Below are positions 5,125 to 11,001 of a stretch of DNA of 41,681 nucleotides, in pieces. The DNA is taken from NCBI GenBank assembly GCA_026988815.1, contig JALSKP010000703.1, positions 1 to 41,681 on the forward strand, in the 5' to 3' direction. Origin of the DNA: Myxococcales bacterium. GTDB lineage: Bacteria > Myxococcota_A > Bradymonadia > Bradymonadales > Bradymonadaceae. The notes beneath the pieces were generated by a model. That model had not been told where the DNA came from. It searched no databases and saw only the letters and a program-made list of their open reading frames with translations. The position numbers and the translations under genes were made by a program. Within the stretch, counting starts at the first letter, position 1, and every line of letters begins with the position of its first letter.

Positions 5125-6852
5125 ATGAAAACGATTATGTTATTGAGCATACTATTATTGTTCGGTTGTGCATCAAAATTTGGCAGGAAGGTTGAGAACC
5201 GTTTTCCGTCAAAATCCGAACTTGTAAAATTAAAAAGTTCCACAACAACATCGACTTATCTTGAAGATCGAACGCCGGGAAAACGCGTTGAGACATGGAA
5301 GCTGACAGGACCCTTGCCGACACAAATCGGTGAGTCGACCGCCGTTGCCTCTAATCCCTTCGAAACTCTTTTGGCGCAAAATTTGGGATCCAACCCCAGC
5401 GTCAATATGACCGATTCGATGAATTGCGCTGCACGAGAAATTGCGATTTTTCAGTCCAAATACAACGCACCTCCTTTTCAATCTTTAAAGAGATTTATCA
5501 CCAGCCGTTGTGGATCCATAACCCCTAATACAAATACAATCACCTTTGATGGGGGAAAGGCGACCGAGGCGCAAGCTCTGGCAACCCTTGAACCCCAGCT
5601 CAAGCAGTACGTTGATCAATTCTCGGGTTTTTCGGGTCGCGTTAATATGGGAATTGCATTTGCAACATCTGATGCGCGATCGACGGTCATCATCTCCTAC
5701 GAACAACCTTCAGTTAAGATCAAGCCAACGTCCATTAATGTGCCCAGCGGCACCTTCGTTATTGAAGGGGTGATCGAAGACAAAAAGGTTCCTGAACGCT
5801 TCGCTGCGCGTTTCACTAAAGGCGAATTTGATACTGGAAAATGTTTAGCTCAACCGGTGGATTCGCCCGCGTTCAAGTTTGTATGCCGTTTGGATACCAC
5901 GGACGAATCAGCCTATCTCCAAATTTCATCCCAGAATAAAGACGATCTTTTTGCAACCTACGTTGCGCGGATTCTTCTTTTTCCGGGCTTGGCGACAACA
6001 ACAAATGCTGAAGGCGTGCAAACCCCTTCCCTTTACAATGTTTACACGCCACCTACAACGCGCCGTATTTTGAACGCCTCAACCAAAAACATCAAACAGA
6101 ATACGACTCTAGAAACAGTAAACGAGCTTATCAATCGCGTACGTTCAAGTGCGGGACGTCCTCCTATTGAAGGGCATGTAGCGCAATCAGAATCCATTCA
6201 ATCCCTCACACCTGTATTTTTCGAATCGATGAACGACTCTCAAAAAATGAACAAAACCGTGCTCGGTATGATGGCCGGTTGGGAGATTAATGACGAGATT
6301 GTGAACGCCGATTTTTCAAGCAATTACGTGGATAGTGAGGACCCCGCCGAGGTCATTGAGGCCTTTTTGGAAACACCAGGAGGAAGAAAAACTCTGCTCG
6401 ATAAGTCGGCCAGCGCCTTTGGTTTTGGCACCCTCAGCAAACCGGGATCGGGCATGGGTGCTATTTTTGTTTCCTATAATTTCGTGACCAATGAGCATTC
6501 CAATAAGCGTATCAAACGTGTGGTTGCCGCTTTAAATCAAGAGAGAAAAGCGCACGGAATGAAGCCGATTAAAGAAAATCGAACCACCCGTGCCAGAGCC
6601 GAGGGGTGGGCCAAAGAGTTAGAAAAAGGCGCCCTTATCGAAGACATTGCCCAAGAATTAATGCAGGCCTATCTTGATGAAACGGGTAAGCAGAATGTGC
6701 ATTCCTATATGATGCTTGTACCGAATTTAGATGATATTAGTTTCGACGCCACGCTTGTGAACAAACGTACCCTTAAACCATCGTTCGTTGTCGCCCCCTA
6801 TAAACCCCTCAATTCGCCATGGACCTTTTACGCGATAATCATCGCCTACTAG
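5125..6852 (+). CDS. Large lipoprotein with CAP/SCP-like repeats (degenerate)
   Basis: Lipobox LLLFGCAS; CAP-like NELINRVRSSAGRPPI...DPAEVIEAFLETPGGRKTLLDKSASAFGFGTL...GAIFVSYNF and RVVAALNQERKAHGMKPIKENRTTRARAEGWAKEL. Confidence 0.6.
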   Translation: MKTIMLLSILLLFGCASKFGRKVENRFPSKSELVKLKSSTTTSTYLEDRTPGKRVETWKLTGPLPTQIGESTAVASNPFETLLAQNLGSNPSVNMTDSMNCAAREIAIFQSKYNAPPFQSLKRFITSRCGSITPNTNTITFDGGKATEAQALATLEPQLKQYVDQFSGFSGRVNMGIAFATSDARSTVIISYEQPSVKIKPTSINVPSGTFVIEGVIEDKKVPERFAARFTKGEFDTGKCLAQPVDSPAFKFVCRLDTTDESAYLQISSQNKDDLFATYVARILLFPGLATTTNAEGVQTPSLYNVYTPPTTRRILNASTKNIKQNTTLETVNELINRVRSSAGRPPIEGHVAQSESIQSLTPVFFESMNDSQKMNKTVLGMMAGWEINDEIVNADFSSNYVDSEDPAEVIEAFLETPGGRKTLLDKSASAFGFGTLSKPGSGMGAIFVSYNFVTNEHSNKRIKRVVAALNQERKAHGMKPIKENRTTRARAEGWAKELEKGALIEDIAQELMQAYLDETGKQNVHSYMMLVPNLDDISFDATLVNKRTLKPSFVVAPYKPLNSPWTFYAIIIAY

Positions 6853-6934
6853 GTTTCATTTGTTGGGTTTCCTCGCTTTGCCTAATAAGCCCGAAGGTGC
6901 GTAGAATCTTACAAACCTAAAACAGGAATTAAAG

Positions 6935-7756
6935 ATGGTAGATTATCCTAAATGGCATCGCGTAGATCCGAAATCCTTCGTGTTATCTCAAGCCCCTACA
7001 AAGACTAAAGAAGATCTCGACGGCAATAAGATAAGTCGTAAAGATGCTTACAAAGTTTACTTGGAAAATATCGAGGCTCTCAAAGTTCTACAATTCAAAA
7101 TGTGGGTCGAGAAGAAGACAAGTTTGCTGATCGTTTTTCAGGCGATGGATACCGGTGGAAAAGATGGCGCGATTCGAAAGTGTTTTGGTCCGCTCAATCC
7201 TCAGGGCGTATTGACCCACGCCTTTAAGGTTCCGAGCGACGAAGAAGCCTCCCACGATTTCCTTTGGCGGATCCATAAATTTGCGCCCGCTAAAGGTATG
7301 ATTCAAATCTATAATCGAAGCCATTATGAGGATGTTCTGGTTGTTCGCGTTCACGACTATAAACCCGAAGCGGTCTGGAAAAAGAACTACCAACACATCG
7401 TAAATTACGAAGAGCTACTCGCCGATTCTGGAACGCTGGTTCTCAAGTTCATGTTGAATATTTCTTTGGACGAACAAAAAGAACGTCTGCAGGAACGTCT
7501 GGACGATGAAACGCGCCATTGGAAATTTTCATCGGGAGATTTGAAGGAAAGAAAATTATGGCCTGATTATATGGACGCCTTTCAGGAAGCATTGGTGAAA
7601 ACCTCAACGCCAAGCGCACCTTGGTATGTTATTCCGGCGGATAGAAAATGGTATCGAAATTATGCGATTACGACGATCGTTCGACAAACCTTAGAGAGTC
7701 TTGATATGTCATGGCCGAGTCCCGAAGAAGGTCTTTCAAAGATCGTCATCGAATAA
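6935..7756 (+). CDS. ppk2: Polyphosphate kinase 2 family protein
   Basis: Walker A FQAMDTGGKDGAIRKCFGPLNPQGV, lid/Walker B IQIYNRSHYEDVLVVRVH, FMLNISLDEQKERLQERLDDETRHWKFS. Confidence 0.93.
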   Translation: MVDYPKWHRVDPKSFVLSQAPTKTKEDLDGNKISRKDAYKVYLENIEALKVLQFKMWVEKKTSLLIVFQAMDTGGKDGAIRKCFGPLNPQGVLTHAFKVPSDEEASHDFLWRIHKFAPAKGMIQIYNRSHYEDVLVVRVHDYKPEAVWKKNYQHIVNYEELLADSGTLVLKFMLNISLDEQKERLQERLDDETRHWKFSSGDLKERKLWPDYMDAFQEALVKTSTPSAPWYVIPADRKWYRNYAITTIVRQTLESLDMSWPSPEEGLSKIVIE

Positions 7757-8021
7757 TGATGTAGACTCGTTTGGGTTATTCCATCGCTAATTTTTGTAAA
7801 TAATCCACAAGAACATGTTTGTGTGTTGTTGGATTTTCTTCTTTGGGTCCTGATCGTTTTCGTAGATCATGGGCGATTTTGTAACCTGTAGTAAACACAA
7901 AAACAACATGTGTAAATTTCGTAACTATCGACATAGACGTATTCTGTCCGTTGTTCGGGCCTTGTGTTTGGCGCACTAAATCCTTAAGTTGGCGACAAAC
8001 CAGACAAAAAGGAGTTCACCC

Positions 8022-9419
8022 ATGAGTGATATCGAAAACGCGTCTAAGCGCTGGATTGAGGAAGGGAAAATCTACAAAGATGCGATCAATGCATGGCTTG
8101 ATGTTATCTATCTTGAACAGAAAAGCCCTGAGGATCCTGAACCCAAAGAGACCAGAACAGACCTCGCTGCTTTCGTAAGAGACCAGATCATCGCCTTAAA
8201 CGCATCCGGGGAACACGAAAAATTGCGCGCTCTTTTTCCGCCCGATAACGAGCCTTTTGGGAGCTTATATGAGGAGGAGTTTACCCAAGTTGTATTCGAT
8301 GTTCTATACCTACCTGATAGCCGAATTCTTGCCACTGTGGGAGGATGGAATAGTAAACAAGTCTACCTTATAGATGACGATAGGACCACAAAACAGGAGG
8401 GCGTGATAGCCTTCGGTTCGTCGCATGATAAAAAATATTTCGCAAAAGCCGTCGCCGATCGTATCGATATTGTTGAGGGATGGGATGGGGAGGTCCAGTG
8501 TTCGCTTCTCTATCCTGAGCATTATGGGAGCGATTTCAATACACGTTTCCCCGGCCTTGAATCTCCAAGCGAGGGACAGGAATTTGGCATTGAGAGTATT
8601 GAGGTCTTTAACGATGGGGAGTCACTTCTTCTGTGTTCGAGTTCCGGTATTTATGTCATTGATAAAACCAAGGTTCAGCTTTTGCATCCCGACATAACGA
8701 CACCCTATTTCGCGGAGAGTATGGAGGATAATCCGGGGATTGACATGAGTTATGCAAATGCCGATCTCTCGCCTGATAACGTCTACATTTCTTTGGGAGA
8801 TAAAGATTCTTCACATCTTATTTTCAAGAGCGATCATCCAGAGGAGCATGTTGGGACGTGGCGACAGTTTTCCGATATCGACCCTCGTTCAGCCTATCCA
8901 CACCGAAGTAAATTCAACTATCTTCTCAACGATGAAGAGGACGAAAATAAGAAGAATCCGCATCTTGCTTTAAGCTCCTGTCATTTTTCATCAAGTGCGA
9001 CGATCGGTATTTCACTGTCCAAATTAAGCGAAGGATTTACCGCATCGGGATACGACGCTGATGAAGCATTGGACTTTATTGATGAAAGAAGTTGGATCTA
9101 TTCGATACTCCCAAGTGCGGTCGGTTATTACTTAGGCTCAAACAACGGTTACATTTGGTACAAATATTACCGTGGTGATTTTCAGATAGGCTACCTCCAT
9201 ATCGGTGGCACAATCATGTCGATGGATCTTTCTGAGGACCGAAAAACCTTGGTTGTAGGCACCTATAGCGGCCAAGTTGTCAAACTCGTATATGCGGGAG
9301 ACGATACAATGACGAGAGACAAAAACAATCGAAAAGATCCCTATTTGATAACCAACCTTGCTTGGGTTGATGAGAAACGATATTTATTTTGGCGAGGAAT
9401 GGAGCCAATGAAATGGTAA
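8022..9419 (+). CDS. Beta-propeller/WD40-like conserved hypothetical protein
   Basis: ATG at 8022 preceded by an AAGGAG-like RBS; repeated blade-like segments (VVFDVLYLPDSRILATVGG..., GGTIMSMDLSEDRKTLVVGTYSGQVVKLVYAGDD). Confidence 0.6.
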   Translation: MSDIENASKRWIEEGKIYKDAINAWLDVIYLEQKSPEDPEPKETRTDLAAFVRDQIIALNASGEHEKLRALFPPDNEPFGSLYEEEFTQVVFDVLYLPDSRILATVGGWNSKQVYLIDDDRTTKQEGVIAFGSSHDKKYFAKAVADRIDIVEGWDGEVQCSLLYPEHYGSDFNTRFPGLESPSEGQEFGIESIEVFNDGESLLLCSSSGIYVIDKTKVQLLHPDITTPYFAESMEDNPGIDMSYANADLSPDNVYISLGDKDSSHLIFKSDHPEEHVGTWRQFSDIDPRSAYPHRSKFNYLLNDEEDENKKNPHLALSSCHFSSSATIGISLSKLSEGFTASGYDADEALDFIDERSWIYSILPSAVGYYLGSNNGYIWYKYYRGDFQIGYLHIGGTIMSMDLSEDRKTLVVGTYSGQVVKLVYAGDDTMTRDKNNRKDPYLITNLAWVDEKRYLFWRGMEPMKW

Positions 9420-9442: not shown

Positions 9443-9474
9443 TTAAGTTCCCTCTCTTAGGCGAGGGAACTTAA
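9443..9474. terminator. Perfect 12-bp stem hairpin in intergenic region, possible terminator without a clear T tract
   Basis: TTAAGTTCCCTC-TCTTAGGC-GAGGGAACTTAA. Confidence 0.5.
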
Positions 9475-9588
9475 GGTCAACCGTGCCGGCTTTGACTTTA
9501 TTATTCTTCGAAGGAGCACGAAGCGTTCTCTTTAATCGTCTTTATCCAAAAATAAGCTCGCCTTATGCTCAGATTTTGAGAGGTGAAG

Positions 9589-10035
9589 ATGGGCTTATTA
9601 CAAAACGGAAAATGGGTAGATCAGTGGTACGATACAAACAAAACCAAAGGTCATTTTAAACGTTCTGTATCTCAATTTAGAGATCGAATTTCAGAAAATG
9701 ATGAGACCTTTCCCGCAGAAAAGAATCGATACCATCTTTACATTTCCTATGCCTGTCCGTGGGCCCACCGAACGTTAATTTTTAGGAAAATAAAGGGATT
9801 AGAAAAGATGATTTCTTTTTCTTCAGTCCACTGGTTTATGGGTGACCAAGGTTGGACCTTTGCGTCCAGTCCGGGTCAGGTTGATGAAATTAACGGTCGT
9901 CGATTTTTGCACGAAATTTATACACAGGTTGAAGGTGAGTATTCGGGGCGGGTTAGCGTACCCGTGTTATGGGATAAAAAGACAAATTGAATCGTAAGCA
10001 ATGAGTCTTCGGAGATCGTTAGGATGTTCAACTCT
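9589..10035 (+). pseudogene. Truncated ECM4/YqjG-type glutathione S-transferase (glutathionyl-hydroquinone reductase)
   Basis: MGLLQNGKWVDQWYDT...ISYACPWAHRTLIFRKIKGL...VPVLWDKKTN then in-frame TGA (9988-9990), then the same frame continues IVSNESSEIVRMFNSA before homology ends. Confidence 0.8.
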
Positions 10036-10140
10036 GCTGCTGATCGCCGACTTTGCGATACCAAGTTGATCGGCTGCTTTGGTAATCGTTCCTGCTTCAA
10101 CGATTTTTACGAAGATTTTCATTTCTAAAAACTGGCTCAT
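10030..10140 (-). pseudogene. Truncated LysR-family regulator (N-terminal HTH only)
   Basis: MSQFLEMKIFVKIVEAGTITKAADQLGIAKSAISSRV matches the LysR HTH; downstream sequence is antisense of the GST fragment. Confidence 0.75.
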
Positions 10141-10335: not shown

Positions 10336-11001
10336 ATGAAAGCATTAATAATTATCGCACTTGTCGGATTCTCAATGGGATGCAAGAGCGAACTTGACGG
10401 TAAAACGAAAGCCAAGGTTTCTGAAGCGAAAGAAATCGTAAAGAAGGTGGAGAAGAAAGTTGAAGAGAAAGGCACTACCGACGTTGCGTCAAAAACGATG
10501 GCCCTCGCTAAAACCTCCTATTTCGGATTCGTAGGCGCGAAAGCGGTCGGCGATCACGCAGGTAATTTCACGGATTTTAACGGGAGCATTTCCGTAAAAG
10601 GTAAGGTTGTAGAGAGTTTGAAAATTCAGGTTAAAACAAGTTCTTTGATCGTTGATAAAGGCGATATGACCGATGAATATCACAAGAAACTAGGATCCCA
10701 CTTAAAGTCGCCGGATTTCTTCGACGTTGCAAAGTTCCCAAAAGCGTCCTTCGTTTCGACGCAAATCAAGGAAGACAAGAAAGGCACAACAACTCATCTC
10801 GTTACAGGAAATCTTAATATCCGTGGCGTAAAGAAATCCGTGAGCTTCCCTGCGACAATTACCTTCGATAAGGGCGTCGTCAATGCTTCGGCTGAGTTCA
10901 AAATCAATCGTGGTGATTTTGGAATCGTCTACAAAGGGATGGCCGATAACCTCATCAAAGAAGAAGTTCTTCTCAAGGTTAAATTTTCATCTAAGGGATA
11001 A
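10336..11001 (+). CDS. YceI-family lipoprotein
   Basis: Lipobox GFSMGCKS; SLIVDKGDMTDEYHKKLGSHLKSPDFFDVAKFPKASFVST, GNLNIRGVKKSVSFPATI are YceI motifs. Confidence 0.88.
   Translation: MKALIIIALVGFSMGCKSELDGKTKAKVSEAKEIVKKVEKKVEEKGTTDVASKTMALAKTSYFGFVGAKAVGDHAGNFTDFNGSISVKGKVVESLKIQVKTSSLIVDKGDMTDEYHKKLGSHLKSPDFFDVAKFPKASFVSTQIKEDKKGTTTHLVTGNLNIRGVKKSVSFPATITFDKGVVNASAEFKINRGDFGIVYKGMADNLIKEEVLLKVKFSSKG

Follow-up and report, generated by a model that had tools for sequence, protein, structure and literature searches.

Two pseudogene remnants are joined tail to tail at positions 9589–10140 of the window, by which we mean the whole 41,681-nucleotide stretch of Myxococcales bacterium DNA that was analysed. 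The first comes from a glutathionyl-hydroquinone reductase (GHR; ECM4/YqjG type), of which it keeps the N-terminal half, and the other is the beginning of a LysR-type regulator of the kind that is linked to GHR genes. The scar is a real and ordinary pseudogene remnant, if one with a slightly unusual history. On balance, the two pieces are probably what is left of a laterally acquired, proteobacterial-type LysR/GHR operon that has since been lost, its 5' halves having been brought together in permuted order by a duplication or circle join (or by several rearrangements) and its outer parts deleted. The features of the locus, with the evidence for each, are as follows.

7989–9419, plus strand: left-flank gene, a 476-aa ORF (without relatives in 18 related genomes)
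9589–10038, plus strand: N-terminal half of a GHR (ECM4/YqjG type) pseudogene (reading frame, alignments, Pfam, tree)
9988–9990, plus strand: in-frame TGA inside the GHR homology (reading frame)
10030–10041, no strand: junction zone, best breakpoint 10038/10039 (residue-by-residue comparison with relatives)
10039–10140, minus strand: LysR-type regulator of the GHR-linked kind, first ~34 codons with the HTH part (reading frame, Pfam, alignments)
10336–11001, plus strand: YceI-like protein, first right-flank gene (domain match; syntenic with congener)

The listed GHR ORF spans 9583–9990 (135 aa), with an ATG at 9589. The fragment carries YACPWAHR, which includes the active-site CPWAHR of the N-terminal GST fold part, and the Pfam family GST_N_2 matched it above the cut-off, in agreement with an earlier note on this DNA that had recognized an N-terminal ECM4/YqjG-like half with ACPWAHR on the plus strand. 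That note had also reported the TGA at 9988 and a frame continuing as GHR beyond it; past the stop the frame indeed reads IVSNESSEIVRMFNSA up to 10038, and full-length relatives carry ...WDKKTNTIVSNESSEIIRMFNSAFD... at the matching position. Identity to full-length GHRs (~310–335 aa) is at most 62%, or 63% when the fragment is read past the stop. With GHR, an Xi-class GST, the fragment shares the N-terminal thioredoxin-like part, the CPWAHR site and the xIVSNES region, but it has the in-frame stop and lacks all that follows MFNSA, including the C-terminal domain. The C-terminal helical domain that would complete a protein of ~310–335 aa is absent, homology stopping at 10038. This half was present in 99/99 GHR loci tested (relatives plus the GTDB collection), and no match to it was found in the genome itself (87.6% complete) or in the one congener covered, G001. 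Likewise, no second GHR was found elsewhere in the genome. A working GHR is not predicted here, because the C-terminal domain is missing and the frame contains an internal stop, and reductase activity on glutathionyl-hydroquinones would not be expected of a half protein. Recoding of TGA was considered and rejected, as 7 of the 31 window ORFs counted (the GHR ORF included) end in TGA and reading past the stop would gain only ~16 GHR residues.

On the minus strand, an ATG at 10140 opens MSQFLEMKIFVKIVEAGTITKAADQLGIAKSAISSRV, and 37 codons read as LysR. The Pfam model HTH_1 matched above its cut-off (E 2.3e-8) over positions 3–34 (or 3–35) of its 60, which bears out the antisense LysR HTH, read inward, that had been proposed for this strand. 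The complete winged HTH (HTH_1, 60 positions) is not there, nor is the LysR_substrate effector domain: beyond about codon 34–37 the minus frame is antisense GHR, in which the 57-aa ORF ends. A search of the same genome for an orphan LysR C-terminal half found none. The genome holds 10 other LysR HTH matches, but all lie in ORFs of ~300 aa or longer, so none of them is the missing half. With the remaining HTH and the effector domain gone, the piece is not expected to yield a working LysR. Chance origin of the two homologies is excluded by their E-values; both pieces are pseudogene remnants, and neither is predicted to encode a working product.

On the GHR side, the fit to relatives extends through N-S-A (10030–10038), and on the LysR side it extends from 'KSAIS' outward (S34 being 10039–10041). 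The switch is therefore best placed at 10038/10039, where ~10030–10036 had first been suggested. R36 and V37 might extend the LysR homology to 10030, an ambiguity of ~9 nt at most, and 'precise junction' was a fair wording. These ambiguous bases may represent microhomology. As in other pseudogene scars of illegitimate recombination, there are two pieces, one join point and a few ambiguous bases at most. The pieces, in contrast, stand in a permuted order when compared with the ancestral pair, and one deletion is insufficient to explain it.

The closest GHRs by identity are those of Alpha- and Gammaproteobacteria (up to 62–63%), compared with 47–55% for members of the bacterium's own family. In the tree, the GHR fragment falls among proteobacterial rows, apart from a supported group with the family rows (f1/f2). 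Its nearest GHRs by tree path are L044, L057 and L043, but support at the nearest fork is weak (93/0), for which reason no donor can be named. The end branch of the fragment is long (0.69, against a median of 0.18 in the tree), a length compatible with decay or with an unsampled lineage. A search of plasmid records for a closer relative found none, all matches being below 60% identity. Among GHR-adjacent regulators in the same collection, the LysR piece is best matched by L043, L087, L074 and L106 (59–62% identity over 37 aa). L043 is common to the nearest-GHR and nearest-LysR sets, and L074 is placed in that part of the tree as well. The nearest GHRs and the nearest LysRs come from one and the same type of proteobacterial locus.

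The order of genes at such loci is divergent, with LysR on one strand and pirin or DoxX, followed by GHR, on the other. When five such genomes were compared with the LysR piece at E ≤ 1e-3, the LysR linked to GHR was the sole match in each. Among 190 genomes drawn from the class to which G059 belongs, 4 had a match to the LysR piece at E ≤ 1e-5, and 3 of the 4 best LysR matches were GHR-linked and divergent, including that of G059 itself (L074). Beyond G059, L129 and L131 (the latter by a full-length LysR query) have pirin and GHR adjoining on the opposite strand, and L130 does not. Around the 99 GHR loci, 27/29 LysR hits were divergent, 1/29 was upstream on the same strand and 1/29 was downstream and convergent; the loci behind the 27 divergent pairs are mutually related and are not 27 independent events. 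The lone convergent LysR is a distant one (29% identity), ~3 kb away. The fragment of the present study matches the proteobacterial LysR divergent from (pirin or DoxX)-GHR over its first 37 residues (up to 59–62% identity), but it is cut within the HTH and stands tail to tail with GHR rather than head to head. No remnant of pirin or DoxX was found beside the two fragments, and neither YceI, thioredoxin nor the left-flank gene was found near GHR in relatives. A close relative with the intact or an intermediate LysR/GHR state was found in none of the collections searched, and a literature search on the GHR-LysR gene pair returned nothing. Within the family, one member (G011, L132, ~6200–7800) has a related LysR divergent from pirin, with no GHR within the 14 kb examined; a related regulator-pirin pair therefore exists in the family.

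The source assembly consists of 903 contigs. From the YceI gene (10336) to ~16937, the window is collinear with the congener G001 (L040) at ~68% DNA identity. The YceI gene is the left edge of this collinearity, and to the left of it G001 has a different gene; thus the remnant sits where synteny with the congener breaks off. The 476-aa ORF on the left (7989–9419) matches nothing in Pfam or NCBIfam and has no relative among the 18 related genomes. Further left, PPK2 (at 6935) is shared with G001 at 77% identity, on a different contig there. Judged from this identity and from the synteny, the left and right flanks are both native to the genus. No direct repeats or tRNA were seen at the scar, and the base composition of the remnant is unremarkable within the window (GC3 0.38 and 0.46). 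A perfect 12-bp hairpin, TTAAGTTCCCTC/GAGGGAACTTAA, lies at 9443–9474 directly after the left-flank gene; it occurs once in the window and has no clear T-run.

The earlier note had explained the scar by a deletion that joined a GST and a LysR gene in convergent orientation. Truncation of both genes, tail to tail and without their 3' portions, was confirmed, the GHR C-terminal half being present in 99/99 loci elsewhere and missing here. The convergent starting order found no support: the comparison with intact relatives that had been proposed did recover intact pairs, but these are divergent, and convergent order for this LysR subfamily beside GHR was not seen. A simple deletion between genes, perhaps widely spaced, that had turned convergent in this lineage is a tentative alternative, clearly less probable than the lost operon with its permuted join. 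One deletion is geometrically the simplest final step to the junction seen, and a scar at a synteny break suggests that local order was unstable. It would, however, require an earlier rearrangement to convergence, and the only convergent case is the distant LysR ~3 kb away. An assembly chimera joining two half genes is unlikely. The fragmented assembly and a junction at a single point would suit it, but the DNA on either side is native to the genus, which disfavours a two-organism chimera, the missing halves were not found on other contigs, and genuine decay is indicated independently by the TGA and by the length of the branch. A reading of the short ORFs as genuine small genes that are conserved is hardly credible: start codons are kept and the LysR frame is open, but the pieces hold half domains only, and the relatives found are full length, none with the short forms whose conservation would have spoken against a scar.

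The lost operon, then, is the preferred reading, and it was likely acquired and later lost. In a divergent pair, each 5' half has its mid-gene end on the side away from the other half, so neither a deletion nor one inversion can yield the adjacency seen; an inversion would give LysR3'/GHR5' and LysR5'/GHR3' joins. Barring a convergent order in the past of this lineage that was not seen, the gene order would require a duplication or circle join, or several rearrangements. We infer that a divergent operon of the proteobacterial type, LysR against (pirin or DoxX) and GHR, was acquired laterally. Tandem duplication or circularization of a segment running from the middle of LysR to the middle of GHR, by illegitimate and perhaps microhomology-aided recombination, would then have joined the two 5' halves. 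Neither of the outer copies predicted by a tandem duplication is present, so the scheme needs a further step, either a later deletion of the outer parts or a circle that was opened between the genes. Several successive rearrangements could have reached the same end result. The specific version in which a small circle, excised with its ends in mid-LysR and mid-GHR, was integrated after opening between both genes is improbable; if true, the join would be the fossil trace of a gene relocation that a circle had mediated in a bacterial chromosome.

The locus reveals no new function or system. It offers instead a clean, small example of the decay of what is likely a laterally acquired operon, and it shows that pseudogene fragments should have their order compared with that in relatives before a deletion is inferred.
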